The notes beneath the pieces are model-generated. The model searched no databases. It was not told the origin of the DNA and worked only from the letters and a program-made list of their open reading frames with translations. The position numbers were made by a program, and so were the translations under genes. DNA of 64,000 nt, taken from a virus. Positions 13,710-64,000 of the stretch are shown one piece after another (the first letter of the stretch is position 1; each line of letters starts with the position of its first letter). The stretch lies in the IMG/VR virus record IMGVR_UViG_3300029911_000001, positions 1 to 64,000 of that record; one strand, 5' to 3'.

Positions 13710-14606
13710 CTACAAAGAGATGAGGTCAAAGGCACCATTGGTGATATAAAGCTTATAGGGGAGATTGGTTTCAATGTCAGTAAACGGCAGGTAGGGAACC
13801 CCCACTCCACTCAGCACTGGGATAAACTCCAATGCACCACTCGTGACTTGAAGCTGGTACAAGCTGCTCGTAACCGAGTCAATCAGTATCACCTCACTCA
13901 CGCCTGCTGCCACTACAACAGGGATGACAGTCACTGCTCCATCTGCAACTACAACGTTATAGGCACCCTCTGTAACGGTATCCACAAATGTGAATACAAG
14001 CACCGTAACTTGAGCCGTTGTAGTAAGTGCGAGGTGCCCCACCACGTCATAGGCGTCCAACGTAAAGAGAGTTGTTGTAGACACTCCTTCTGGAAAGAAC
14101 ACACTCCCAACGCCCCCTGTATCGATGAGCCCAGAGTCATACCCCGTCGCCGTTATTCTAATTTGAACAATACCCGTGGTCTCCCAGATAAGGGTGAGGG
14201 GGACGTAAAGGGCTGTGACCGAGTTAGGGATAGCTCTAAGGATTGCAGTTGGGGTGGGGTTTGTTCCTACGTCTCCTGCGCTACTGTACCCTGCTATCAA
14301 AGCGAAGCTGGGTAACCCCCTCACCCCTGAGTCTATAAAGAAGGGTCTGGGCATGTGGTGTATGGCTTGAATCACTCCCTGTAGGTTGATTGAAGTGTCC
14401 ATATAGAGCAGGTACCTATTATTTTCGACATCGAACGCGAATGTACGTACCGGGGTGAGGTACCCATCCACATACACTTCAAGGTCGCGGCGAGGGTCGA
14501 ACTCCCCTAGAGGTCCTTCCTGCACAAATGGACCGAGGTAGTCATTCAGAATCCACTGGATGCGGTCAGGGTAGGGGGTATTGGTTTCAAAACTAAACAT
14601 CGTCAT
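13710..14606 (-). CDS. Virion-like protein with C-terminal repeats
   Basis: 298 residues. The N-terminal 160 residues are unrecognised beta-rich sequence. The C-terminal half holds three copies of a roughly 30-residue unit of the form D-x-x-T-x-x-x-Y-x-L/V-x-V-x-x-G-A-x-x-x-x-P (for example YNVVVADGAVTVIPV, YQLQVTSGALEFIPV and YKLYITNGAFDLISL). The same unit closes the protein at 17988-18647, suggesting a shared oligomerisation or attachment motif. The start lies inside the end of the intein-bearing gene. Probably tail- or fibre-associated; this is inference. Confidence 0.65.
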   Translation of the reverse strand: MTMFSFETNTPYPDRIQWILNDYLGPFVQEGPLGEFDPRRDLEVYVDGYLTPVRTFAFDVENNRYLLYMDTSINLQGVIQAIHHMPRPFFIDSGVRGLPSFALIAGYSSAGDVGTNPTPTAILRAIPNSVTALYVPLTLIWETTGIVQIRITATGYDSGLIDTGGVGSVFFPEGVSTTTLFTLDAYDVVGHLALTTTAQVTVLVFTFVDTVTEGAYNVVVADGAVTVIPVVVAAGVSEVILIDSVTSSLYQLQVTSGALEFIPVLSGVGVPYLPFTDIETNLPYKLYITNGAFDLISL

Positions 14607-17064
14607 CCCCCACCAACATAGACAGCAGTTTCATCTCTAGTGAAGTCTGCTTGCGTTTCTTCATCTTCTGTTCAACCTGTTCTTTGGTTTTACGCATGGT
14701 GCTCAACAGGTCGTCGTCCGTTGGAACGTTGTGTCCATGCTCTGCCTTCTCAGCCTCAGTCTCATAGGGGAGCCCCTTATGCAAGTGGGGTTCCTTCTTT
14801 ATCTTGTCGTGCTCCTGTTGCTCAAGCTTATGTTCTTCGTTCTCCACCATAGCGTTGAGGTCGTCTTCCCCCTCCGGCTCTTCCTTGGACACATCCTCAG
14901 TCTTCGGCGTGTCCACAACCAAGGGTTCTGTCGCGTTCTCATTACGTTCGACAACACCGGGGACTTCTTCCTCTTCGGGAGCCTTCTTACCTTCTTCCTG
15001 TTCACGCAGGGCATCGATGAGCTTTTGTTGGATGCTCTTGTTTTTCTTCTCGCGGAGCTTCTTTATCTCCTGACGCTTCTTCATCGCGTCCTGTTCCTTC
15101 TTCAGTTTCTCCGACTTCTCCGTGGGCTGTTGTTTGTCCTTGTTCCGTTTAACCGTATTCTCACGGATAATGTTCTGAATGTTGTGCTGCACAGAGGGTA
15201 GGATACGTTCCAGCACAGCCTTTTCGTGCTTGCAATTGTGTACGACCACACCATTAGCTATAAATGATTCATCTTCATCCACGGTCAAATCGTGAAAATA
15301 TTCCGGGGCATCAACATCATTCGCTGAGTGAAGCACTCTAGTAAACCCATCTTGCCATACATCGGTTTCTTGGTTAGGAAGACCTGTATTCAACTGGTCG
15401 ATAACATGAGTACGCAACCTACCCCTCATCAAATCAAGAAGCTGGGGGTACTGTTTGTAATTCCAGTAAAGGCGGAAATACCTGTTTTTCTTTCTAACCC
15501 CCTCCTTTTTACCCCGCCAATCTTGGTGGAGACGCCCATGCCAAATACCCATGCTATACAGCATGGTAGATATTTGGGATACAACATGAGGAGAGATTGA
15601 ATACACATATTGTTGCCCCGAAGCATCAAAATGCCCATCCCCCAAAGCGTAAGATGACACAAGGGCTTGAATGGCCTCTGTGTTCCACTTAAACACATCA
15701 GGAGCGAGGCGCTTCGTAAGGGAGCCGCACCCCGCCAATTGAATCATCTTAGCCGCAAACTTACCGTCATTGACAATGACATTGAGCCACTTTTTCCCCC
15801 CATAGTTGCGAAACTTAATTTGAATATCAGCTTCAGCCCCGAGAACCCCAAACAATTTGGACTGGATATCCTGCCCAAGAGTTTCGGCCTCGTCCTGATT
15901 AATCGTAAAGTTTACCCCCCATACACGAGAGGTTACCCCGTTTATATCGCATACCACTCCTTTTGTGGTGGGTCTGCCTGACTTGACCTTATTCGGGATT
16001 CCCTTTCTATATATTGGGCTACCTTCTGCCAAATAATACCCCAGCAAAGAAGCAAAGTTGGAATCAACTTCAGTGCCTCCATCCCATTGTATTTTTGGGA
16101 AAAACAGGTACTCGTGAAACTCCAATTTATCCGATTCAACCCACCCCAACTTGCCTTGTGAGCAGTCTTCAATTTCAGGATCGCCCACATGGGCGACCCG
16201 GTTTTGCACTCGGGATATAGTGCCCTGACTAACCCCATACCTCTCAGCCAGAGTGTACTGATTTTCTATACTTGAATGTATCTCAGCTATTGCTTCCTCA
16301 GAGAGTTTTCGAGAAGGACGATTACGGTGGTGACCCGGCAAGAACTTACGCCCCCACTTTACCCCCCTATAACCGAGGGGCAGTGAACCTTTACAGCCAC
16401 AGAAGCAGGTTTCATTTCCTCGCACAACAGCTAGTGGGTGCTCTTTAGATACAATCAGGGGTTCGGATGCCCCTTTAGCTCTAACCTCCCGAGCTATCTC
16501 TCCAACATGTGCAGGTCGTCCAGAAACATGAGTAACTTTACGAGCACGCCCTTTATGAGTGACAACCCAATCCCCCACCTGTACATTTTCAATCAGTTTT
16601 TCAGTACCATCCCCCATCAGGACGCGGGTTCCGGGGGCTACGCATAAAACAAAATTCTTACGTAGGTCAAGCCGCTTCGTAGGAGCAGTAAGTTCCGGGC
16701 GTGGCTCACCCAGCAGGGCATCTCGCTGGTGAAGGTTCCACTGAGCCCCCCAGTAGAGATGGGCAGGGCAGCTACAATTAAGCTTCACATCAAGGTCGTT
16801 GGCGTTCTGAGTATCCTCCACCTTGTCCACGTCAAACTTCACCGTCACGTCGTGACCGGCAGGGTCTGAGTAGGACTCACGGCACTTAACGTTGTAGCGA
16901 AGAAACAACTGCTTCGGGTTCGAGTCGAGCAGGGAGGGAGTACAGCCGGGACGACGCTTGATACTAAAAGAATTCGTCTGGCTCACAAGTTCGGGTACGC
17001 TAATCGCCACTTTAGTTTGCGGGTAGCTGATGTTGCCGAGTGAGATGGTGATAAAGGAAGCCAT
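14593..17064 (-). CDS. SWIM-like zinc protein interrupted by an intein
   Basis: The precursor is 823 residues. Residues 1-140 and 611-823 are the host protein (353 residues once spliced) and 141-610 the intein. The host part carries CSCPAH near residue 97, and after splicing the second half begins CKHEK, giving a CxC...CxH zinc site like SWIM fingers. The intein sits exactly before the Cys of CKH, so splicing is needed to complete the site. The C-terminal extein is a long, highly charged coiled-coil-like region (Lys/Glu-rich) ending KLLSMLVGDDDV. It lies in the virion region; function unknown. Confidence 0.8.
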   Translation of the reverse strand: MASFITISLGNISYPQTKVAISVPELVSQTNSFSIKRRPGCTPSLLDSNPKQLFLRYNVKCRESYSDPAGHDVTVKFDVDKVEDTQNANDLDVKLNCSCPAHLYWGAQWNLHQRDALLGEPRPELTAPTKRLDLRKNFVLCVAPGTRVLMGDGTEKLIENVQVGDWVVTHKGRARKVTHVSGRPAHVGEIAREVRAKGASEPLIVSKEHPLAVVRGNETCFCGCKGSLPLGYRGVKWGRKFLPGHHRNRPSRKLSEEAIAEIHSSIENQYTLAERYGVSQGTISRVQNRVAHVGDPEIEDCSQGKLGWVESDKLEFHEYLFFPKIQWDGGTEVDSNFASLLGYYLAEGSPIYRKGIPNKVKSGRPTTKGVVCDINGVTSRVWGVNFTINQDEAETLGQDIQSKLFGVLGAEADIQIKFRNYGGKKWLNVIVNDGKFAAKMIQLAGCGSLTKRLAPDVFKWNTEAIQALVSSYALGDGHFDASGQQYVYSISPHVVSQISTMLYSMGIWHGRLHQDWRGKKEGVRKKNRYFRLYWNYKQYPQLLDLMRGRLRTHVIDQLNTGLPNQETDVWQDGFTRVLHSANDVDAPEYFHDLTVDEDESFIANGVVVHNCKHEKAVLERILPSVQHNIQNIIRENTVKRNKDKQQPTEKSEKLKKEQDAMKKRQEIKKLREKKNKSIQQKLIDALREQEEGKKAPEEEEVPGVVERNENATEPLVVDTPKTEDVSKEEPEGEDDLNAMVENEEHKLEQQEHDKIKKEPHLHKGLPYETEAEKAEHGHNVPTDDDLLSTMRKTKEQVEQKMKKRKQTSLEMKLLSMLVGDDDV
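15235..16644 (-). mobile_element. LAGLIDADG intein
   Basis: 470-residue in-frame intein. It begins with Cys1 (CVAPGTRVLMGDGTEKLIE, block A) and ends with VVVHN followed by an extein Cys, the standard splice-junction residues. A TxxH-like block B is visible as VSKEHPLAVV. The endonuclease part has two LAGLIDADG-type helices (SLLGYYLAEG and LVSSYALGDG). Between the splicing and nuclease parts there is a Cys cluster (CFCGCKG) and a helix-turn-helix (TLAERYGVSQGTISRVQNR), probably extra DNA-binding modules for target recognition. All key residues seem intact, so it should be active. Confidence 0.9.
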
Positions 17065-20817: not shown

Positions 20818-21774
20818 TTAGTTCTCGCCTACGTTCGGGGAAGCGAAGCGACCACTTACAGTCAGACGCTGTACGCCGGACGGGTTGAAGACCAAGAAGC
20901 CGAGGTTCTCGAAGATGGAGAAACCAATCTGGCGGAGGTCAGGACGGTCTGCACTCATGACGGTTAGCGGGATACGCTCTGGGATGACACCGAGGAACTC
21001 AGCGTCGGCCAGAATGTACACGCAGCCATAACCAACCTTACGGGACTGGAGCAGAGTTGCGCCCCACAGGTAACCCATAACACCGGTCTTCAAGAGCTTG
21101 CGCTGTGTCTCACGGTCGATGTTCTGCTGTGTCCACTTGAGCAAGTCAGTGTAGTCGCGGGGGTTGAAGAAGCAGAAAGCCACCGAGAGGTCGTGACGCT
21201 GAACCTGACCGAAACCATCAGCCATGCTGTTGATGTCGATAGGAGCCGAAATCGCGATGTCCACGTTGTACACGGGGTCGGTCTGCGCCTTGCCTGCTGC
21301 GGCAGTTGCAACCGCGTCAAACAGGGTGAAAACGTAGCCGTCTTCTGCTGCACCGACTTCAGCCTTCGCCAAGTTAAGCGAATGGGCCACGAGGTCGAAG
21401 CGGCGTTCCTTAATCTGGGTGATAGGAATCATCGGGTTGGATACGATTTCGAACGTCGGAACCGTAACACGCTTCGGCTTTGTCACGCGAACGATGTCAC
21501 CACCTTCTTCACCGACGACGAAGGCTTCCACGAAGCTACCACCGGGGGCCGAGCCCACAGTCATAGCAGCAGTGTCAAATTCCTTATCGTAGATGGGCAG
21601 AGCACCATCGGGCAAAGTCTCAACCATCAGCGCCTTACGGGCGATGGACATATAGTCACGACGACGACGAAGTGACGGGCCAAGCGAGGCAGCAAGCTTC
21701 TGACGACCACCGGCAGTCTTAAGCAACTGTCCGAGCATCGCGGTCTGCTGCTGTGTGCGAGAAAGATTAGCCAT
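20818..21774 (-). CDS. Major capsid protein (HK97-fold type)
   Basis: 318 residues. A basic N-terminal arm (LGPSLRRRRDYMSIARKAL) is followed by an E-loop-like stretch (APGGSFVEAFVVGEEGGDIV) and the P- and A-domain pattern KPKRVTVPTFEIVSNPMIPI ... MADGFGQVQRHDL ... FFNPRDYTDLLKW ... LLKTGVMGYLWGATLLQS ... VYILADAEFLGVIPERI. This is the familiar order of HK97-like phage capsid proteins. It is followed by a strong terminator and preceded by the decoration gene, the usual head-gene arrangement. Pieces around residues 184-210 and 228-240 recur in the Tat-signal proteins at 60198-61359. Confidence 0.85.
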   Translation of the reverse strand: MANLSRTQQQTAMLGQLLKTAGGRQKLAASLGPSLRRRRDYMSIARKALMVETLPDGALPIYDKEFDTAAMTVGSAPGGSFVEAFVVGEEGGDIVRVTKPKRVTVPTFEIVSNPMIPITQIKERRFDLVAHSLNLAKAEVGAAEDGYVFTLFDAVATAAAGKAQTDPVYNVDIAISAPIDINSMADGFGQVQRHDLSVAFCFFNPRDYTDLLKWTQQNIDRETQRKLLKTGVMGYLWGATLLQSRKVGYGCVYILADAEFLGVIPERIPLTVMSADRPDLRQIGFSIFENLGFLVFNPSGVQRLTVSGRFASPNVGEN

Positions 21775-22530: not shown

Positions 22531-22734
22531 TTTGACTTTTTCTCCATGTAGAAGTTTTGAATTAGCCCTCACTCCAATTCTTAGTCGAGGAGACCGACCG
22601 TTGAACTATAGAGCAGTGACTTACTTCACATACCTATGGGGTGGGTATTGGGAGAAAGCTAGACTTACATTAAATTTTAATTTTATGCCCGTTTTTCTGT
22701 CCATAATAAATAAGTGAACTACCTATACCTTAGT

Positions 22735-23412
22735 ATGTTCATATACCTAGTTACCAACACGATAAACGGCAAAGCCTACATTGGAAAAACCTCGAAAACC
22801 GTCAAGGGACGGTGGGAAACCCACCTTCAGAACGCAAAGATGGGGTTGCCCTACCATCTATACCGAGCTATTCGAAAGTATGGGGTTGACGCTTTTCATG
22901 TACAGACTATCGCAGAATGTAATAACTCAGAACAGTTGAGCGAGTTGGAGAAGATGTGGATTTTGTTACTAGGTACTCACAGCACCAAATATGGGTACAA
23001 TATGACCTATGGAGGTGAGGGGGTTACCGGAACTGAGGAGGTGCGTGAAAAAATTAGACAAAAGGCCATGGGTCGGATTCCGTCTAAAAAACAGAGAGCA
23101 GTTGCGTCAGCCCTCTTCAAGGGTAAGCCAAAGCCTATAATTCAGCGGAAGAAAATGGCTGCTTGGTGGGATGAGACCACACCTATAGGCCAAGCTAGAC
23201 GTAGTAAACAGGCGTTGGTAGCCCGTCGCGTCAATGACATTGAAAACAAGAAACTGAAGGACTACCTATGCCCTGACTGCGGGAATGAGTTTGAGCAAGT
23301 TACCAAAGGCGTATACGGTGGGCACCGTAAGGCGTGCCTACACTGGAAGAGAATGTCTGAGATTGTCGAAGAAGAAATTGGGCTGACCCTAGACGAGGTA
23401 CTAGACTCCTAG
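22735..23412 (+). CDS. GIY-YIG homing endonuclease
   Basis: 226 residues from the ATG at 22735; a GTG at 22714 in the same frame is possible. The GIY-YIG core is plain: MFIYLVTNTINGKAYIGKT, then an Arg (GRWETHL), LYRAIRKYGVDAF and a Glu (SELEKMWILLLG). It is followed by Tyr-Gly-Tyr-Asn, a linker rich in Lys/Arg and a zinc-ribbon-like end (CPDCGNEF ... HRKACLHW). No good ribosome binding site is seen before either start. It lies on the strand opposite to the intron-bearing decoration gene, just outside the intron. Confidence 0.85.
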   Translation: MFIYLVTNTINGKAYIGKTSKTVKGRWETHLQNAKMGLPYHLYRAIRKYGVDAFHVQTIAECNNSEQLSELEKMWILLLGTHSTKYGYNMTYGGEGVTGTEEVREKIRQKAMGRIPSKKQRAVASALFKGKPKPIIQRKKMAAWWDETTPIGQARRSKQALVARRVNDIENKKLKDYLCPDCGNEFEQVTKGVYGGHRKACLHWKRMSEIVEEEIGLTLDEVLDS

Positions 23413-29447: not shown

Positions 29448-30401
29448 TTATATGTCCTTCACTAGAGGAATAGGTAGTTGGTGTTTCCTCTTTGTTTCTT
29501 GCATCTTCGCCATTACATCAGGGCTAGAGGCCGGAGAGTTGCCGCCATAACGTAGCTGGTTAGTCTTGATACGTTTCTTCTCTATGTCGGGGCGACATGA
29601 TGGGCTTAAGCCGCCAAATCGCTCTAGTATGGTCGCATTCTTCTTAGCTTGTAGTGTCAAATTGAGAATTGGGTTGGTTACCCCATACTTAGCCAGCATG
29701 GTGGTTTCTGCTTTTTGTTTTAACTCTGGGTCGGCGAAAGTACGTCTGTTTCTCCAGTGTGCCGAGCATTCGTAGAAGGTCTTTGAACAGCACGGCTTCT
29801 CATTATTTCCCAACAAGAACAGAGCTTGAGCACCACAACCATAGCCACAAGCTGCTTCCTTTTCAATCATCTTTACCTTCATGCTCTTCTTATGCTTACT
29901 GTAGGCTGAGCATGAACCTTGATGGTGTGAACAACAAGGGGTTTCCTTCTTACCTACAAGGAATTTGGCGGGGTTGAAGCAGCCGTACTCACACAGCAGC
30001 CTATCATCAGGAGAAATTGGGTGTACACGGGTCTTTGCCCCCTTGCGCCTACCCGTGTTACCTTTTTCTTTGGCTATACGTCCCGCACGACCGGGGTCAG
30101 AGAGTCCCTTATCATTGATGTATTTGAAACCTCCCTGACCCCCCTCATGGAGGTTGTAGCATAGTTGGTCTTGACAGGCCGATTGGAGGAGTTCTACCTC
30201 TTTAGCATATGCCTCGGATGCAAGGGAGAATTGGGTTATAACTTCTTTGGTAAAGTTATGGCGACCGTACTTCTTAACAGCGCGTTTGATGACAATACCA
30301 GAGCCAAGATAATCATCGTTGGGATTATTAGTCTCGTGAACCCCAAGGTAATACCGAGAGTTGAGAAGGTTGGTAATTTTGTAGACCGTAAAAACACTCA
30401 T
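29448..30401 (-). CDS. GIY-YIG homing endonuclease
   Basis: 317 residues from the ATG at 30401; a TTG at 30413 is upstream in frame but sits inside the leader hairpin. GIY-YIG core: VYKITNLLNSRYYLGVHETN, then IKRAVKKYGRHNF, the catalytic Glu region (EAYAKEVELL) and CYNLHEGGQGGF. The rest carries repeated Cys/His modules (LLCEYGCFNPAKFLVGKKET, CCSHH, CGYGCGAQALFLLGNNEKP, CCS) that probably bind DNA with zinc. It lies between a virion gene and the tail tube gene, and its ribosome binding site is hidden in a strong hairpin. Confidence 0.85.
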   Translation of the reverse strand: MSVFTVYKITNLLNSRYYLGVHETNNPNDDYLGSGIVIKRAVKKYGRHNFTKEVITQFSLASEAYAKEVELLQSACQDQLCYNLHEGGQGGFKYINDKGLSDPGRAGRIAKEKGNTGRRKGAKTRVHPISPDDRLLCEYGCFNPAKFLVGKKETPCCSHHQGSCSAYSKHKKSMKVKMIEKEAACGYGCGAQALFLLGNNEKPCCSKTFYECSAHWRNRRTFADPELKQKAETTMLAKYGVTNPILNLTLQAKKNATILERFGGLSPSCRPDIEKKRIKTNQLRYGGNSPASSPDVMAKMQETKRKHQLPIPLVKDI

Positions 30402-30449
30402 GCGACTCTCCAAGTATCAGTTACTTCTAACTAATACCCAGAAAGTCGC
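30402..30449 (-). promoter_or_regulatory. Leader hairpin hiding the homing gene's RBS
   Basis: GCGACTTTCT pairs with GGAGAGTCGC (10 bp including G-U pairs) right before the ATG at 30401. The GGAG ribosome binding site is in the paired 3' arm. The loop itself folds into a second 10-bp stem (GTATTAGTTA / TAACTGATAC). Translation should be low unless the stem is opened or transcription starts inside it. Confidence 0.75.
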
Positions 30450-42207: not shown

Positions 42208-42936
42208 CTAAGGTACTTGGGTAGTGCAAAAAGAGCAGTTCGGATTAATCAGACCACGATTGGTGTGCCAACGCACATGCTTGGCCTTTATAAGACTGCC
42301 GCTGGCAACACTAGCTGCGGCGGCTCTCTGCTTCGCTTCGCGAGAGCCTGACTTGCCTCCGAGGCTGTGAACTTCACGGGACATGCGGGTACGCATCTCC
42401 TCAGGGTGTTCGTCAGCCCACTTCCTACAAGCCTCGATACGAGTAGATTCATCTTGAAGGGCACGTTTGGTTTTTATTTTCTTCACTGAGTCTTCTGTGA
42501 GAAACGAGCCACCCTGCTCCTGTCTTGCTTGCTCAACAGCAGCTTTACGCTTCTCCTCTTGTTCAGCCGAACGCAGGAACACAGGGTTACCTACTTCCTT
42601 CAATTTGGCCTTGGTCTCTTCAGACATAGTGCCGGTGAACCCTTCTCCACCCCGGCAGATGTTGTAGCCGATTTCTGGATTGCGGGTGTCGTAAAGGGCG
42701 ATGAGTAAACGTTCGAGTCGGTCTAGCTCTTCTTTGGTCTCGATACCCTCGAAAAGAGGCTCTATCGACCAAACCTCCTTGGGGTGCTTACGCATGGAGT
42801 TGAAGAGATGGGATGAACCTCTGTTTCGCTTTGCATGAGAAAATTTGTCTTGAAGGTACTTCTTCAAGTTATTGCCCTTATGCTGGCCGATGTAAATCTT
42901 CCCTGTGATTGAGTTAGTGATGGCATAGATGTACAT
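42208..42936 (-). CDS. GIY-YIG homing endonuclease
   Basis: 242 residues from the ATG at 42936; the open frame to 42993 runs through the leader hairpin. Motifs: MYIYAITNSITGKIYIGQHK, a Lys/Arg stretch with HLFNSMRKHPKEVW, the Glu helix (KEELDRLERLLIALYD) and IGYNICRGGEGFTG. The C-terminal part holds NUMOD-like helices and a final Cys pair (NPNCSFCTTQV). It lies between two virion genes. Translation is probably limited by the hairpin at 42941-42965. Confidence 0.85.
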   Translation of the reverse strand: MYIYAITNSITGKIYIGQHKGNNLKKYLQDKFSHAKRNRGSSHLFNSMRKHPKEVWSIEPLFEGIETKEELDRLERLLIALYDTRNPEIGYNICRGGEGFTGTMSEETKAKLKEVGNPVFLRSAEQEEKRKAAVEQARQEQGGSFLTEDSVKKIKTKRALQDESTRIEACRKWADEHPEEMRTRMSREVHSLGGKSGSREAKQRAAAASVASGSLIKAKHVRWHTNRGLINPNCSFCTTQVP

Positions 42937-42940
42937 GAAA

Positions 42941-42965
42941 ATGGACTCCTCTTGTAGGAGTCCAT
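42941..42965 (-). promoter_or_regulatory. Leader hairpin hiding the homing gene's RBS
   Basis: ATGGACTCCT pairs with AGGAGTCCAT (10 bp, 5-base loop). The AGGAG ribosome binding site lies in the paired arm and the ATG follows four bases later. A perfect example of RBS occlusion. Confidence 0.8.
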
Positions 42966-43023
42966 AGTTGGGTTTCGATTTGTTATAAAACACAAATTAT
43001 TGAAACTAAACAACTTATCGTCG

Positions 43024-47171: not shown

Positions 47172-48587
47172 TTACTCCGCGTCCTGAAAGTAGTCGAAGC
47201 TGGCTGCGGTACTGCGAACCTCATCCAGCGTGAAATCCTTCTTCAGTTCGCCGTTGAGGAACACGGTCTTGAGGTAGTTGCCGTAGCTGTCCTCTTCCGT
47301 GGTGTCGATAGTACGCCAGCCGCCGTCGCTGTTGAACAGGTTGAAGCGGCCACCGATGGATGCCTTCGAAGAATCCGTCTTCGGGTTCTTGAAGACCGGA
47401 CTCCACTGCCCTGCCCGGTTGATGGCCGAGCACTTGATAGCAAAGCGCATCGTGTCGCGGTTCTGCTGCTGCAACAGGGCACCGCCCATGCCGTAGCCCC
47501 AGTTGTCCATCGACCAACCCGACCGGGTGAGGGAGGAGTTGATGCGAAGGATGTTCTGATAGTTCACGCCGTCGCCCTGAATCGCACGAATCTGTGCCGG
47601 GAGAACCTTGTAGCCCTTGGCGTTGGTCTCGAAGCCGAACTTCTCCGCAACTGCGTTGAAGATGTCTTCGAGGACAACCACAGGGTCACCTGAGTCCGGG
47701 CGAAGCACGACAGTACCGTCCCGACGCAGAACCTTCTCACGAAGCTGGTTGCCGAAGATTTCAGCGACCGCGTTGTGCGTGTCGTAGCTGTCAACCACGC
47801 ACGCGAGAAGCGCAGTGGGCGACTTGTCGAGCATGTTCTCGTAGGCATCACGCTCGTTAGCCTGACCCCATGACGTGACCGTGCTGTGTTCCATAGCAGG
47901 GATAGAGAACCCCGGCATATCCTTGGCTCCGTAATAGTCACGTAGCAGTATGGCCGCTTCCATCGTGTCTGAGCCCATGAAGTTGACCAGATGTGCTGCT
48001 CCGCCGATAGCCGCCGATTCTTGCGAGGAGACGCCACGGGCTCCAAAGTCATGCAGCTTGAACGGCAAGCCAGCAGGAGTTCCGGTGCGAACCAAGTCCT
48101 TGCCAATTTCCTGCTTGATGTGCCATGACAGGGTGCCGACCGTGATGGGGTACCATGTTCCTCGGAGGATGATGGTCTCCGCCCAGTTTGTCAGCCAAGG
48201 AAACTCATCATCCGTGTTCTCAATGGTCAGCAGGGCGTTCTTCACAGAAACAACTGTACCCTCCGGCACCGCACGAATCTTGAGGGGAAGGCGACCGTCG
48301 TGCTTCTCCAGCAACCTGAGCCAACCCGTCGTATTGAATACCTTATCGGAGCCAAAGTGAGCCGCCGCAAATGCTTGAGCCTCGTCTACGTCTTCCTTAG
48401 TGAAGACCTTACCGACCAAGTAGGTCTTGAGGGTGTACTGAAGACCGAAGAACATCGTGTCCTTCCAAAAACCTCCGCGAGACATAAGGTGGGAGTAAAT
48501 AGTTCGAGTATCTGGGGGGTACTGAAAATGGTGGGAAAGCTTGTAACTGTCCGTTGTCAGTAGGGGGTTAACTCTCAGTTTTTGCAC
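47172..48587 (-). CDS. nampt: Nicotinamide phosphoribosyltransferase
   Basis: 471 residues, the normal length. It makes NMN from nicotinamide and PRPP in the cytoplasm. Signature stretches are all present: FKLHDFGARGVSSQESAAIG, HLVNFMGSDTMEA, SIPAMEHSTVTSWGQANERD (with the His that is phosphorylated in known enzymes), RPDSGDPV and IRAIQGDGVNYQN. Substrate-binding Asp/Arg positions look intact. It lies 1.6 kb from the NMN adenylyltransferase-Nudix gene in the same orientation, separated by a homing gene and a PEP-CTERM gene. The homing gene ends inside the first 20 bases of this gene. Together the two enzymes rebuild NAD+ in two steps. Confidence 0.92.
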   Translation of the reverse strand: MQKLRVNPLLTTDSYKLSHHFQYPPDTRTIYSHLMSRGGFWKDTMFFGLQYTLKTYLVGKVFTKEDVDEAQAFAAAHFGSDKVFNTTGWLRLLEKHDGRLPLKIRAVPEGTVVSVKNALLTIENTDDEFPWLTNWAETIILRGTWYPITVGTLSWHIKQEIGKDLVRTGTPAGLPFKLHDFGARGVSSQESAAIGGAAHLVNFMGSDTMEAAILLRDYYGAKDMPGFSIPAMEHSTVTSWGQANERDAYENMLDKSPTALLACVVDSYDTHNAVAEIFGNQLREKVLRRDGTVVLRPDSGDPVVVLEDIFNAVAEKFGFETNAKGYKVLPAQIRAIQGDGVNYQNILRINSSLTRSGWSMDNWGYGMGGALLQQQNRDTMRFAIKCSAINRAGQWSPVFKNPKTDSSKASIGGRFNLFNSDGGWRTIDTTEEDSYGNYLKTVFLNGELKKDFTLDEVRSTAASFDYFQDAE

Positions 48588-49497
48588 TTGTTTTCTCCTT
48601 CAAAAAAGCCTTTACATCATTTATGAAGAACGGGATTCTCACCATTTGGTATCCGTTATCTTCCGCCCACTGGTCTTTCAACTTGTCCAAACTTCGTATG
48701 CGTTCCAAGTCCTCGGGCTTCTTCCCTGTCAATACCTTGTAATGCTGTGCTCCATCAAATTCAATGAGTAGCTTCATCCCCTCAACACAGAAGTCATACC
48801 GTAGATGGCGACCTGACTTTGGGTTTATGAGTCCGGGGAAACACTTCTGTGGTTTGTACTTCCAACTCCACGCTTCCAAACACTTTCTAACTTCCTCCTC
48901 GCCCCACGAATAGTACCGTGAAAAGCATTTTGGACAACCTGCACCCCGAAGATGATTACTCGCCAGTTGTTTAAAGTCCCCATGCACCTTACATGTAATG
49001 GTAACCGATTTCAAAGAGTAGGTGTAACCTAGTCGGTCATAACCATAGCGGTCACCGTGGAGCCTTCGAGCTTCGATGATGAAATCTTCGGGGGACTTAC
49101 GCTTTTTATCGCTCCTCTGTACTATCCCACATTTTGGACAGCCACACCCATTCAAATGGTTATTCGGGGTCATCTCAAACCCCCCGTGAACCGGACAAAG
49201 AATTGTTACTTTGTCCAAAGTTGTGGTTCGGTATACAACGTTGGAATAGTCGTATAGATCACCATGCTTCTTCCTTGCTTTCTCGATGAACTTCTCAGTC
49301 GTTGATGTTGCTTCCTTCCGAGCACATTTAGGACAGTTCTGGCCCACTCTGTGACATGAGGGGAGTTGCCAAAACACACCATGTTCTCGACACACAATTT
49401 CTACCTTGCTACGTTTGTTTTTGTACACCAACCGGGAGTAATCATACCGCTCTCCGTGTACCTGTTGCACTGCTACCAAATACTCCTGTGTCGTCAT
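48568..49497 (-). CDS. Homing-type nuclease with zinc repeats
   Basis: 309 residues from the ATG at 49497; a GTG at 49503 is upstream. Three repeats follow the pattern AxxxHGxRYDYSxxxY...KVxIxCxxHGxFxQ...HxxGxGCPKC. The C-terminal domain has YDFCVEGMKLLIEFDGAQHY and a later Lys/Gln region (YQMVRIPFF), typical of PD-(D/E)xK/Vsr-like nucleases attached to such repeats. The gene is inserted just before nampt and overlaps its start by 20 bases. Its start lies in a hairpin. Confidence 0.75.
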   Translation of the reverse strand: MTTQEYLVAVQQVHGERYDYSRLVYKNKRSKVEIVCREHGVFWQLPSCHRVGQNCPKCARKEATSTTEKFIEKARKKHGDLYDYSNVVYRTTTLDKVTILCPVHGGFEMTPNNHLNGCGCPKCGIVQRSDKKRKSPEDFIIEARRLHGDRYGYDRLGYTYSLKSVTITCKVHGDFKQLASNHLRGAGCPKCFSRYYSWGEEEVRKCLEAWSWKYKPQKCFPGLINPKSGRHLRYDFCVEGMKLLIEFDGAQHYKVLTGKKPEDLERIRSLDKLKDQWAEDNGYQMVRIPFFINDVKAFLKEKTSAKTES

Positions 49498-49524
49498 ACC
49501 CACCTCTAACTAAGGGGTGGGTAT
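49496..49524 (-). promoter_or_regulatory. Hairpin over the start of the nampt-linked homing gene
   Basis: ATACCCACC pairs with GGTGGGTAT (9 bp). The GAGGTG ribosome binding site and the first two bases of the ATG at 49497 are inside the stem, so translation should be repressed. Confidence 0.75.
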
Positions 49525-49537
49525 TGCAAACAGTAAC

Positions 49538-50115
49538 TTAGTTTATTCTCAAATACCTATTCCTTGACACGTAACCCAGCCCTAGCAGCCCTGTGCCCAG
49601 CAGCAGCAAGGAGGAAGGCTCAGGAGTCGGGGCTGGGATGGGGACAGCGAAGGTGTCCAGTGGCGTGACTGACAGGCTTACGATCCCCCCTTCGGGTGTG
49701 TCCCCACTCATGAATGAAATCCAGTCCAGCCCGTCCGCCTCAAAGCCCTCCGAAGTGCGTGTAAGTCCAGCGTATAGGGAATACTCCAGACCGCGTTGTA
49801 GCCCGTAAATGCAACCCCCGTCGCCGCCTCAAACCACGGGCTGGAAGCAGTCAACACGTTGTTGTTGAATGTCGTACCGGGGGCTGACAACACCATGGAG
49901 GCAGTATGCTGGGCATCCGATATCACACCCGTGAGTCCTGTGATAATTCCGGCTGAATTGGTTGTGAAGGTTCCGCGTCCTGCGAGGGGTAGATAGGGGA
50001 TACCGTCAGGCGTGTCGGCTGAATTGAAGAAAAAAGAATACTGACTGGCAGAGGCTGCTGGAGTTCCTAGTACAACCATCAAGGTCAAGGCAAAAGAAAG
50101 TAGGGCGGTTTTCAT
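49538..50115 (-). pseudogene. PEP-CTERM secreted protein, reading frame broken by one base
   Basis: Starts MKTALLSFALTLMVVLGTPAASA (Sec signal) and continues as a beta-rich secreted domain (YSFFFNSADTPDGIPYLPLA ... GTTFNNNVLTASSPWFEAAT). At about 49790 the first frame runs into an unlikely end (stop at 49708). The other frame continues as EYSLYAGLTRTSEGFEADGL and ends with PAPTPEPSSLLLLGTGLLGL and an Arg-rich tail, a textbook PEP-CTERM sorting signal. Adding one G in the TGGAG at the junction (AVW to EYS) restores a single protein of about 190 residues. This could be a real mutation, a sequencing slip or programmed frameshifting. Exosortase substrates of this kind are host-type proteins, rarely seen in phages. 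Confidence 0.75.
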
Positions 50116-50162
50116 TGTTTTATCCCTTTCATTATTTTATTTAGTTCCCAAGAAACCTCTGG

Positions 50163-51164
50163 TTATTTCAATCCTTCCGCTGCGAGTTCCTTGGGCGTCA
50201 TGTGCGTGTAGGTGACGTTCATCCGGCCAACCTCGATGGTGTCCCACACGTACAGGCCGAAGTGCTTGTACACGACGGGGAAGACACTCTCCCGGTGCGT
50301 GTCGATGAGCAGTTCTGCCTTCATCTGGTCGATGGGAAACCACTTAACCTCTTCAATGTCATCGCCAGCAATCGCATTGAGCGAGGGTGACTCCGCCGCG
50401 AAGACGAGCGACTTGATTTGGTCGGGCTCCCCTTTCCACCGCCAGTCAGGGATGAGAGCAGAGCCGATGAACTGAGGTTCATTCACCACGAGGCTGGTCT
50501 CCTCCATGGCTTCACGGGCAGCGTCGTACTCGTAGCTGGGGGTGTAGGGCTCAGAGAAGCCACCGATGAACCGCCACTGCGTCTCACCCGGCTTGCGACC
50601 GAGCAGGAACAGCGTTTTGGTGTCGTCGTTCTCCGGCTTGTGGTAAATCACCACGTCCACCGTCGCCTTCACAGCAGGACGGATGTTGGTCATGGCGTAG
50701 ATGACGCCAGCACGGAACTCCGGGGACTCCATGACCGTGTTGGTAATTTTCGCACGGATGGTGGTGCCGCTGATGCCGTCGAGCGTGTTGGGGAGAGTCA
50801 GTTCAATCGGCTTGTACGCCCCATGGTAGTGCGGTACGAAAGAATCGCGAGAGCCGTACAGCGTCACGTCGCCGTAGTCCACTACGTCACGAATAGCCCT
50901 GTCCAAGTTCCGCGACCACGTTGCATCTTCCTTGGTGTCGGTGAGGGGGAAAATCATGAAGTCGGGATACGCAGCCTGAACCATCGCCTTGCGAGTCTCG
51001 AAGTCGAGGGGGTTGTTGTAGGTCGAGCCAATGGACTTCTGACCGAGGAACAGAATGACCTTGCTGTGCCGTGCCCTTACTTCATCGAACAGGGCTCTGT
51101 GTCCAGCGTGAAGAGCATCGACTTGGCAGCGTGCGACAAGAACGCCGTAGTTAGGCTTTTGCAT
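50163..51164 (-). CDS. nadM: Bifunctional NMN adenylyltransferase/Nudix hydrolase
   Basis: 333 residues. The first half is a nucleotidyltransferase (GVLVARCQVDALHAGHRALF with the His-x-Gly-His motif, and ISGTTIRAKI). It turns NMN and ATP into NAD+. The second half is a Nudix hydrolase: GGFSEPYTPSYEYDAAREAM plus EETSLV fits the Nudix box with Ser in place of the usual Gly. This fusion occurs in bacterial NadM-Nudix proteins, where the Nudix part often hydrolyses ADP-ribose. It works with the Nampt at 47172-48587. The start overlaps the 212-residue upstream gene. Confidence 0.9.
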   Translation of the reverse strand: MQKPNYGVLVARCQVDALHAGHRALFDEVRARHSKVILFLGQKSIGSTYNNPLDFETRKAMVQAAYPDFMIFPLTDTKEDATWSRNLDRAIRDVVDYGDVTLYGSRDSFVPHYHGAYKPIELTLPNTLDGISGTTIRAKITNTVMESPEFRAGVIYAMTNIRPAVKATVDVVIYHKPENDDTKTLFLLGRKPGETQWRFIGGFSEPYTPSYEYDAAREAMEETSLVVNEPQFIGSALIPDWRWKGEPDQIKSLVFAAESPSLNAIAGDDIEEVKWFPIDQMKAELLIDTHRESVFPVVYKHFGLYVWDTIEVGRMNVTYTHMTPKELAAEGLK

Positions 51165-61568: not shown

Positions 61569-61578
61569 TCACGAAAGA

Positions 61579-61658
61579 GCTACGAGAGGGATTCGAACCC
61601 CCGGTGTTTGTATGCCGCATTACAAGTGCGGTGCATTCGACCACTCAGCCATCGTAGC
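61579..61658 (-). tRNA. tRNA-Thr (anticodon TGT)
   Basis: Acceptor GCTACGA/TCGTAGC, D-arm TGGCTGAGTGGTCGAATGCA, anticodon stem CCGCA/TGCGG with loop CTTGTAA, T-arm GGGGGTTCGAATCCCTC. The variable region is long (CATACAAACACC), as in type II tRNAs. No encoded CCA. Confidence 0.8.
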
Positions 61659-61664
61659 ATACCT

Positions 61665-61934
61665 TTACATTTTTACAAAAGAGAGTACCGGTACATCTGG
61701 GTAGCTCTCCCTGACTTCTTTATTCCAAACCTCGTGCCTTGCATGACATTCTGAACAGTAGAACGCTCCCGCATCGAAGGAGTGGTCTTGATAATCACTC
61801 GACCAACCCCCTGTGCCGGGAGGGCACCAGAACTCAGCCGAGTTTTCACATCTCCCCTTGTAGTTCTCAATGTCCGTGGATACAAACCCCACAGACTCCG
61901 GTACGCCCATGCATTGAATCTTCAAATCGGTCAT
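61665..61934 (-). CDS. Small Cys-rich protein
   Basis: 89 residues. CMGVPESVG, then GRCENSAEFWCPPG and FYCSECHARHEVW. The CxxCH and other Cys suggest a zinc site. It is placed among tRNA genes, starting eight bases before the Pth2 gene's stop. Function unknown. Confidence 0.6.
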   Translation of the reverse strand: MTDLKIQCMGVPESVGFVSTDIENYKGRCENSAEFWCPPGTGGWSSDYQDHSFDAGAFYCSECHARHEVWNKEVRESYPDVPVLSFVKM

Positions 61935-61942
61935 GTATCCTC

Positions 61943-62251
61943 TTACTTATACTTCGGGAAGAATCCAAAGTTCTTGGGGTACTCTTCTCTCGGTATGAAA
62001 ACGATTGCAACTTCTTGTCCGTTCAACGTGGACTCGGTGATGACTTGATGCTTCGGCACTTCCTTCGCCTTCTCGAACTCCTCGTCGGTTACCTTGCACA
62101 CAACCTTGGCGAAGGACGTTTGCAGCCACTTGACCATATCCGGGTCGGTGGGGAAGTTCAGGTAGAGCGACAGAGGCCCGTGTGCTGCGGCCACGATGGC
62201 GTTACCTACCGGGATGGAGCCCTTCACCAAAACGTACATCTTCAATTTCAT
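61943..62251 (-). CDS. pth2: Peptidyl-tRNA hydrolase 2-like protein
   Basis: 102 residues from the ATG at 62251. LKMYVLVKGSIPVGNAIVAA, AHGPLSLYLNF, KVVCKVTDEEFEKAKEV, HQVITESTLNGQEVAIVF and IPREEYPKNFGFFPKYK follow the Pth2 fold order (Lys and His near the start, Asp/Thr-rich strand later). Pth2 releases peptidyl-tRNAs that drop off ribosomes. It lies inside the phage tRNA cluster, which supports a translation role. The frame is open far upstream, but that region holds tRNA genes. Confidence 0.7.
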   Translation of the reverse strand: MKLKMYVLVKGSIPVGNAIVAAAHGPLSLYLNFPTDPDMVKWLQTSFAKVVCKVTDEEFEKAKEVPKHQVITESTLNGQEVAIVFIPREEYPKNFGFFPKYK

Positions 62252-62291
62252 GCTGGCCTCGTGTATGAGTCCGATAGGGCTCATTGGACTC

Positions 62292-62328
62292 ATATATGAA
62301 GCACTAAAGCCGTTAGTGCTCCATATAT
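62292..62328. terminator. Long A/T-G/C hairpin upstream of pth2
   Basis: ATATATG-a-AGCACTAA / TTAGTGCT-c-CATATAT, about 15 bp with a 5-base loop, between the Gly tRNA and pth2. A second small inverted repeat (ATGAGTCC/GGACTCAT) follows. Probably a processing or termination hairpin after the tRNA pair. Confidence 0.6.
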
Positions 62329-62340
62329 GGGACTTTATCT

Positions 62341-62413
62341 TGGTGGGCACTTCGGGAGTTGAACCCGAATCACCGTTTCCCTTGGCAGGGTGCCACGGTG
62401 AACCAATGTGCCC
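62341..62413 (-). tRNA. tRNA-Gly (anticodon GCC)
   Basis: Acceptor GGGCAC/GTGCCC, anticodon loop CTGCCAA, T-arm CGGGTTCAACTCCCG, discriminator A and an encoded CCA. Normal short variable loop. Six bases from the Gln tRNA. Confidence 0.85.
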
Positions 62414-62419
62414 GAATCT

Positions 62420-62506
62420 TGGTTGGGGAGGCAGGATTCGAACCTGCAATGAGCTTACGCTCGGGGGCTTCAAAGGCCCTTGACCTACCATTGGTACGAC
62501 TCCCCA
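62420..62506 (-). tRNA. tRNA-Gln (anticodon TTG), long variable arm
   Basis: Acceptor TGGGGAG/CTCCCCA, anticodon loop CTTTGAA, T-arm GCAGGTTCGAATCCTGC, discriminator A and encoded CCA. The variable region forms a stem GAGC-GTAA-GCTC, a type II feature that is unusual for a Gln anticodon. Confidence 0.8.
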
Positions 62507-62511
62507 ATAAC

Positions 62512-62745
62512 TTATGCTGTGACCAAATCCTTCGGAGGCCACTCAAACTTCCAGTTGCTCCGCTCACGAATCTTGTTATCGCGAATGTTGTAGAACCCGG
62601 CGTACGCTGCACACGTGATAGAGCAGAACACAGGATGACTCAGGTCGTCCGGCATCTCAACCATCTGAGGCCCACGTGGGGTGTCAGGGTCTTCGTGATG
62701 ACGCCGATAATCTGCACAACCGGGTGCTGGACACGCAATCAACAT
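62512..62745 (-). CDS. Small zinc protein
   Basis: 77 residues. MLIACPAPGCADYRRHHEDP and FCSITCAAYAGFYNIRDNKI supply four Cys and two His, a likely zinc knuckle. The C-terminus is Trp- and Pro-rich (WKFEWPPKDL). It lies directly between the RNA ligase and the tRNA pair. Unknown function. Confidence 0.6.
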   Translation of the reverse strand: MLIACPAPGCADYRRHHEDPDTPRGPQMVEMPDDLSHPVFCSITCAAYAGFYNIRDNKIRERSNWKFEWPPKDLVTA

Positions 62746-62748
62746 AGC

Positions 62749-63348
62749 TCACTCCCAGTACAGCCTATAGTTCGTTCCGTATACTTCGTTCAACTTCTTG
62801 AAGAAGGCATCGGTCTTTATCTTGACCATGAAATCGTCACCCTTGGCGACGACGCCTTCCCACACTGGATACTTTCCGCTGCGGACATCATCAACGAACT
62901 GCTTGTTGAGGTTGCCCTCGTAAACCACTTCAGCCGCGTATGGCAGGTCTCCGTACTGCTTGAGAAACTGCCGGGGCGACATCATCCCCTTCTTGAACAG
63001 GTACACATCGAACAAGCGAAGCTGCTTAGGCTCCCCCGGCGTATGCACACCCGCGAAACTTGAGTCCCCGAAGAACTCTGTGAAGACCGTGGTCCTCTGG
63101 CAGTTCCGGTCGTAGTCCTTCACCCGGCGAGTCAACTCATCTGCCATGGTATCCATGAAGACCGGAATCGCTTCACCGAAGACCGGGTTGCTCTTGTCGA
63201 ACAACTCATGTCGGGTACCAAACTTGAACCAACCCTTCTTGGGGTTCCACTCCCAACGAAGGTTCGAGCCATCGTACTTGTAGAAAGCGATGCACTGCTT
63301 ACCTAGAGGGGCTTTGGAACTTCCTTCGATACTTGGGTACTGCTCCAT
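62749..63348 (-). CDS. RNA ligase-like nucleotidyltransferase
   Basis: 199 residues. Motif I is KYDGSN (residues 24-29, adenylated Lys). Others: FGTRHELFD, a motif IIIa-like region (TVFTEFFGDSSFAG, RLFDVYLFKKG), motif IV WEGVVAKGDD and motif V MVKIKTDAF. This is the core of the Rnl2/DRB0094-type RNA ligases. It would seal RNA ends with ATP. Near phage tRNAs and a P-loop kinase it may repair tRNAs cut by host nucleases. No large C-terminal domain, so a short form. Confidence 0.8.
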   Translation of the reverse strand: MEQYPSIEGSSKAPLGKQCIAFYKYDGSNLRWEWNPKKGWFKFGTRHELFDKSNPVFGEAIPVFMDTMADELTRRVKDYDRNCQRTTVFTEFFGDSSFAGVHTPGEPKQLRLFDVYLFKKGMMSPRQFLKQYGDLPYAAEVVYEGNLNKQFVDDVRSGKYPVWEGVVAKGDDFMVKIKTDAFFKKLNEVYGTNYRLYWE

Positions 63349-63371
63349 ACATCCCTTTCAATTTCTCCAAT

Positions 63372-63396
63372 ACCACTTCCATAATCAGGGAGTGGT
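63372..63396 (+). promoter_or_regulatory. Hairpin before a broken homing gene
   Basis: ACCACTTCC pairs with GGGAGTGGT (9 bp, 7-base loop). The AGGGAG ribosome binding site of the gene starting at 63399 lies across the loop and 3' arm. Confidence 0.6.
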
Positions 63397-63398
63397 TT

Positions 63399-63613
63399 AT
63401 GAAATGCCTTCAATGTGATACCGACACGAGTAATCCAAAGTTCTGCTCCAACAAGTGACCATATTGATGGAAATTACATGAACAACCATCGTAATAACTT
63501 GCGGTGCAACTGCCCAAACTGCGATATACAACTACCTACGTCAAAAGGGGAAGAACCGAGGCAACGGTAGGCATTGGCGTCGAGTTCGTTATGCGGAGGG
63601 TAAGTCCCGCTAA
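63399..63613 (+). pseudogene. Broken small HNH/zinc-type gene
   Basis: Starts MKCLQCDTDTSNPKFCSNK, the typical first zinc module of phage HNH proteins, and then stops at 63458. A second frame continues DHIDGNYMNNHRNNLRC with CNCPNCDI. A third frame ends KNRGNGRHWRRVRYAEGKSR at 63613. Two frameshifts would make one protein of about 70 residues. The RBS-hiding hairpin supports a homing origin. It points opposite to its neighbours. Confidence 0.5.
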
Positions 63614-63616
63614 AAA

Positions 63617-63692
63617 TGGAGCCGGTTGAGGGACTCGAACCCTCTGCCTTTTGCTTACCAAGCAAATACACATCCATATATGCTTAACCGGC
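63617..63692 (-). tRNA. tRNA-Thr (anticodon GGT)
   Basis: Acceptor GCCGGTT/AACCGGC, anticodon stem TTTGC/GCAAA with loop TTGGTAA, T-arm GAGGGTTCGAGTCCCTC, discriminator T, encoded CCA. Normal length. Confidence 0.85.
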
Positions 63693-63698
63693 CTTTCT

Positions 63699-63896
63699 TT
63701 ACTTACAACAGCGACTAATCTGCTTATCAAGTTCCTGTGCAGTCTCGTGCGCTTTTTCAAAAAACTCATCAACATCTTCGGAGTAGGTGACTCCGTGAAG
63801 CAGAGCACGTCGCCGCTTGTCCTCTGCTACGTTGTGGCGAAGGTTCTCCAGCATCTGCTGAGCGATTGCTGCTGCGGCCTCATCCAAGTTTTCCAT
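63699..63896 (-). CDS. Small helical protein
   Basis: 65 residues from the ATG at 63896 with AGGTGAG upstream; a GTG at 63902 is also possible. Fully helical pattern: MENLDEAAAAIAQQML, NLRHNVAEDKRRRALL, VDEFFEKAHETAQELDKQI. It lies between two Thr tRNA genes. Unknown function. Confidence 0.6.
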   Translation of the reverse strand: MENLDEAAAAIAQQMLENLRHNVAEDKRRRALLHGVTYSEDVDEFFEKAHETAQELDKQISRCCK

Positions 63897-63917
63897 ACTC
63901 ACCTAATACTGCGAAAC

Positions 63918-64000
63918 TGGAGCTAGGTGAGGGACTCGAACCCTCGGTGTTTGTATACCGCTTTACGAAAGCGGTGCCGTCGCCACTGAGCCAACCTAGC
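63918..64000 (-). tRNA. tRNA-Thr (anticodon CGT)
   Basis: Acceptor GCTAGGT/ACCTAGC, anticodon stem CCGCT/AGCGG with loop TTCGTAA, T-arm GAGGGTTCGAGTCCCTC, discriminator T and encoded CCA. Long variable region (TATACAAACACC), nearly the same as in Thr(TGT). Ends at the window edge but complete. Confidence 0.85.

Follow-up and report, generated by a model that had tools for sequence, protein, structure and literature searches.

A broken gene for a putative exosortase substrate in a probable Acidobacteriota jumbo phage, and intact PEP-CTERM genes in other phages

Described sorting systems and the phage carrying the locus

Proteins of the bacterial PEP-CTERM/exosortase (EpsH/XrtA) system combine an N-terminal signal, a variable ectodomain and a C-terminal tail consisting of a PEP motif, a hydrophobic segment and a basic end (PF07589, TIGR02595; Haft et al. 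2006, PMC1569441). This type of sorting occurs in soil and biofilm bacteria, and what its substrates do is known in few cases. PEP-CTERM proteins are carried by many Acidobacteriota. The gene described here shares the three parts of this architecture. It differs from the bacterial system in that it is phage-encoded without an exosortase and is frame-broken, and in that genes of this kind often form adjacent pairs in phages.

Phage proteins that alter the envelope of the infected cell, as is proposed here, include those responsible for superinfection exclusion and lysogenic conversion. The known surface proteins of this type are lipoproteins, membrane proteins or glycosyltransferases, and, to our knowledge, none of them uses exosortase sorting. 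Another comparison is with proteins containing the choice-of-anchor C domain (TIGR04362); one phage PEP-CTERM protein (L136:6087–6716) matches this model with a value of 9e-18, which is below the curated cut-off, and the protein of the present locus does not match it.

The DNA analysed here (the window) is from a giant phage of soil and comprises bases 1–64,000 of a virus record of 231,108 bases (G000). The nearest cultured relative of the window phage is the Tunturiibacter phage Tunturi_5, a 309-kb jumbo myovirus with a complete genome isolated on Tunturiibacter psychrotolerans, Acidobacteriota (PP885688; PMC11924767). The major head protein of the window phage has 72% identity to that of Tunturi_5 over 97% of the query, and at least 163 relatives of this protein were found among IMG/VR stretches. 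The host of the window phage is likely to belong to the Acidobacteriota.

Two Tunturi_5 proteins, gp97 and gp179, exceed the Pfam PF07589 cut-off. Both are intact and annotated as "hypothetical protein", and neither "PEP-CTERM" nor "exosortase" occurs in the main text of the paper describing this phage (PMC11924767). Like the window gene, they encode PEP-CTERM proteins and belong to a jumbo phage, the head proteins of the two phages being homologous; unlike it, they are unbroken, and their ectodomains are not demonstrably homologous to that of the window protein.

The interrupted PEP-CTERM gene

An NAD-salvage module containing NAMPT and NMNAT-Nudix genes occupies positions 47172–51164 of the window. 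These two genes are adjacent in three related virus records (L012, L014 and L018), with no endonuclease-like gene between them, while in the window about 1.6 kb separates them, in which the PEP-CTERM gene and a gene of endonuclease-like type are located (Table 1). This module has received the PEP-CTERM gene as an accessory insertion.

Table 1. Features of the PEP-CTERM locus and of the window phage (window coordinates)
Feature	Position	Strand	Basis
Major head protein	20818–21774	-	phrog_2522, 3.4e-42
NAMPT gene, downstream flank	47172–48587	-	PF04095, 1.5e-52; PF18127, 8.5e-32
Endonuclease-like gene (DUF4379/DUF723/DUF559-like)	48568–49503	-	weak sub-threshold Pfam matches
Whole PEP-CTERM gene	50115 to 49538	-	signal and domain in frame 0, tail in -1 frame
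Putative Sec signal peptide, first 23 codons, ending in ASA	50047–50115	-	sequence rule
Frame-0 part: signal peptide and ectodomain, then out-of-frame residues	49708–50115	-	ORF list; 135 aa, stop at 49708
Frame-break zone	49770–49800	-	codon-usage switch; no slippery heptamer; same in three records
-1-frame open run: rest of ectodomain and tail	49538–49828	-	96 codons and stop; codon usage favours ~49770 to 49600
PEP-CTERM sorting tail: PEP motif and hydrophobic segment, then basic end	49568–49630	-	PF07589 and TIGR02595 over cut-off
NMNAT-Nudix gene, upstream flank	50163–51164	-	NUDIX PF00293, 5.9e-12; weak CTP_transf_like match

A preliminary description of this locus had reported a phage gene for a PEP-CTERM protein with a Sec signal, a complete tail in a second frame and a one-base frame break, and the present analysis supports this observation. 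The frame-0 product begins with MKTALLSFALTLMVVLGTPAASASQYSF and contains an AxA site. The putative Sec signal was assigned by a rule (a lysine near the N-terminus, a hydrophobic core and AxA) rather than by a signal-peptide program, and the mean hydropathy of its core is 1.8. The tail sequence in the -1 frame is APTPEPSSLLLLGTGLLGLGYVSRNRYLRIN. It scored 31.1 bits against Pfam PF07589 (cut-off 20.7, E-value 9.5e-8) and 25.7 bits against NCBIfam TIGR02595 (cut-off 16), and neither model gave a match over its cut-off in any of 14 control genomes. Judged by these profiles, it is a genuine PEP-CTERM tail. Its C-terminal end is basic, although not strongly arginine-rich as had been described (3 Arg in the last 11 residues). 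An N-terminal Sec signal and a C-terminal tail are present in one frame in the intact relatives considered below and not in the window gene. Searches for relatives of the window ectodomain found none among annotated phages or plasmids and only identical copies in viral contigs; a search of genome contigs using short patterns, which is weak evidence as all the patterns came from one sequence, also returned no relative.

The position of the break was estimated by a codon-usage log-odds scan trained on 24 window genes. The coding signal follows frame 0 down to approximately position 49785 and the -1 frame from approximately position 49770. The earlier placement of the break, near 49790, is thus right within about 15–20 bases, a precision that does not single out the lost base, which had been given as G. 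Two further virus records (183,684 and 60,064 bases) contain the locus and are identical to the window over 10.4 kb, including the break. Where more sequence is shared, SNPs and indels set them apart from the window (in one record, for example, 48 mismatches within 19.8 kb), so the three records do not go back to a single assembly. An isolated sequencing error, which had been offered as one explanation, is therefore unlikely and was rejected as the cause of the break. Most likely, the window copy is a gene recently broken by a real mutation; the break is read as recent because the codon signal and the tail beyond it have not yet decayed. Since it is broken, this copy is not by itself evidence for function.

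A programmed -1 frameshift yielding soluble and anchored forms of the protein, also raised earlier, was considered as well. The coding signal is kept in both parts of the gene and a run of five G is found at 49819, upstream of the switch. However, there is no slippery heptamer between 49831 and 49708, the stretch usable for a -1 shift, and the codon-usage switch falls downstream of the G run. The RNA downstream of the break folds worse than shuffled sequences (z = +1.35; 189 of 200 shuffles were as good or better in a pseudoknot-free model), and no Rfam family matched. Programmed frameshifting was rejected on these grounds and is regarded as very improbable. Restarting of translation at the ATGA overlap at 49708 was rejected too, as the product would have no signal peptide.

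It could also be supposed that the truncated product of 135 residues serves a purpose of its own, secreted and free of an anchor, and that loss of the tail was favoured. The ribosome-binding-like sequence AAAGGGA, the start and the signal peptide of the gene are intact, and the break has spread to three records. On the other hand, the ectodomain would be shortened, and the last residues of the product would be nonsense because codon usage marks the -1 frame as the coding one after the break. We consider an advantage of this kind improbable and prefer the reading of the window copy as a recently broken gene.

Intact PEP-CTERM genes in related and other phages

The window phage contains a second PEP-CTERM gene, which is intact and lies in one frame (200 aa; tail at 142490–142549 of record G000; L104:6978–7580). 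Its product has a membrane segment at the N-terminus and also contains a linker rich in proline. Two intact PEP-CTERM genes in tandem were found in a 157-kb phage (G044) whose head protein is 88% identical to that of the window phage; as in the bacterial system, they are located near sugar-modification genes, here encoding a methyltransferase and an NDP-sugar epimerase. The core of gp97 of Tunturi_5 was compared with the second protein of the window phage, and 61 of 2000 shuffles scored as high, so that a likeness between them is only suggested by the sequences. Scans of viral contigs with gp97 and gp179 revealed no full-length relatives, and a scan of genome contigs with a G044 protein revealed no relative.

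Of 50 further records sharing a related head protein, many of which are fragments, G044 was the only one positive for PEP-CTERM (1/50). The trait is therefore patchy, as expected for accessory genes. The preliminary description had held that a host without exosortase, together with the lack of any related phage with an intact tail, would argue for a meaningless fragment. The search of other phages that it called for revealed intact tails in related phages, which removes half of that argument.

The wider survey covered contigs found by tail-pattern scans of viral contigs, together with G044. All 26 surveyed viral records exceeded the PF07589 cut-off and 15 of them hold at least two copies, often adjacent; as several records are near-duplicates, the number of independent lineages is lower than 26. 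Phage genes are located close to the PEP-CTERM genes in those contigs whose neighbourhoods were inspected: head and neck protein genes surround the pair in L110, terminase and portal genes follow directly after the pair in L120, and a neck protein gene (L126), a terminase gene (L119) and tail protein genes (L131) are found nearby in others. Adjacent pairs in or beside virion-gene modules occupy L110:4539–6105, L122:3441–5070, L126:3380–5003 and L120:3929–6090. The pair at L136:5386–6719 adjoins a phage thymidylate synthase gene. A 70-kb viral contig contains two adjacent PEP-CTERM-like genes recognised by motif only (L146:2643–4093).

Every example except Tunturi_5 comes from metagenome assemblies, and the genes could in principle be host DNA misassembled or misbinned as virus. 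We give this almost no credence: phage genes lie close by on the contigs, three records agree at the window locus, and Tunturi_5, where the explanation is already refuted, has been isolated in culture and carries two such genes in its complete genome.

Different phages have PEP-CTERM families in common, with approximately 35–89% identity, paired in varying combinations. L110_5425 is related to L122_3441, L126_3380 and L128_5419; L122_4267 to L131_6120 and L128_6102; L120_5368 to L131_5365; L110_4539 to L120_3929; and L125_5218 to L138_3194. For seven phage gene pairs, dN/dS values of 0.03, 0.12, 0.05, 0.27, 0.40, 0.25 and 0.19 were obtained, the distant pairs approaching saturation. All seven values are below 1: the compared genes are kept by purifying selection, whose action in phages is not fully separable from earlier action in hosts. 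As far as seen, the compared copies occur mostly in phage contigs only.

These results bear on the reading of the window gene as a functionless passenger, which would have been taken up from a host with its endonuclease-like neighbour, would now be decaying and would never have had a role in infection. The place of the insertion, between two genes that relatives have side by side, the broken frame and the lack of the gene in most related phages agree with this reading. Against it, the second PEP-CTERM gene of the same phage is intact, and there are intact families under selection in other phages as well as intact genes in Tunturi_5. A passenger without function is therefore judged unlikely, and a broken member of a recurrent class of phage genes is preferred.

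An alignment of eight diverse phage PEP-CTERM tails was too variable to search with. A short-tail search of annotated phages returned nothing and also missed the two tails of Tunturi_5, which makes it a false negative; other annotated phages may thus have been missed in the same way. A search of an open-access collection, in which most subscription papers are missing, found no paper describing phage-encoded proteins tagged for exosortase.

Structure prediction was carried out for a related phage family in place of the window protein, since the latter is broken and lacks the relatives needed for an alignment. Modeling with AlphaFold2 using six related phage proteins led to a predicted beta-sandwich flanked by an N-terminal helix and, at the PEP motif, a C-terminal helix of membrane length (mean pLDDT 73.6). 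Structurally, the model came closest to a Bacteroides surface glycan-binding protein (Z 9.7, rmsd 3.0, 133 residues); adhesin domains were also among the best matches, as were several carbohydrate-binding modules with Z values around 8, and Foldseek results agreed in kind. Since these values barely exceed the common beta-sandwich background, binding of carbohydrates by the intact phage proteins is a suggestion from the model. For a second phage family, the predicted structure was too poor (pLDDT 53).

The beta-sandwich also resembles domains of phage tail fibres, and pairs are located among head, neck, terminase and portal genes in L110, L120 and L126, so the phage PEP-CTERM proteins might be virion or assembly proteins rather than proteins of the host surface. 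However, a signal peptide and a membrane tail are ill-suited to virion assembly in the cytoplasm, and the genes of the window phage, G044 and Tunturi_5 are located among NAD-salvage, sugar or replication genes. A virion role seems to us to have little likelihood compared with a role at the host surface.

Exosortase and the proposed role at the cell surface

No exosortase (PF09721) over the cut-off was found in any of 30 virus records, namely the window phage, a near-identical record, the 26 surveyed records, Tunturi_5 and G085; the PEP tails of G085 were recognised by motif only. What these phages provide is limited to substrates, and a host enzyme would be needed to process them.

In our main reading, to which we assign a probability of about 0.7, the window gene encoded a surface protein and exosortase substrate of a jumbo phage, probably of Acidobacteriota, and a real frame break removed its anchor tail. 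It would belong to a recurrent class of phage genes without an exosortase of their own, whose intact members would be sorted by the host exosortase and would change the cell surface. An intact protein would be exported by Sec and held in the inner membrane by its tail. The host exosortase would then cut off the tail and pass the protein to the cell surface or the exopolysaccharide. There, its domain may give the infected cell an altered surface; receptors might be hidden from other phages, for example, or the polysaccharide coat might be changed. A similar effect on the surface had been proposed in the preliminary description, whose interpretation as a whole is partly supported.

A broader generalisation is more doubtful, and we put it forward tentatively: many tailed phages of exosortase-bearing soil bacteria might carry small cassettes, often of two genes, encoding carbohydrate-binding-like proteins tagged for the host exosortase. 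Through the sorting machinery of the host, the phages would thereby give the infected cell a new coat, for instance, as a defence against competitors among phages.

The presence of substrates without the enzyme in phages, including a cultured phage of Acidobacteriota, suggests viral exploitation of this pathway. Phage genes now called hypothetical would gain a likely function, and Tunturi_5 with its host offers an experimental system for surface sorting.

Several other features of the window were noted. A large protein encoded at 14593–17064 has Hint/intein matches (PF05203, PF14890) and is probably an intein in a structural gene. GIY-YIG endonuclease genes, likely those of homing endonucleases, are located at 22714–23412 and 42208–42993, with a weaker match at 29448–30413. 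Four tRNA genes, three for Thr and one for Gln, are found at 61577–64000, at the end of the window.
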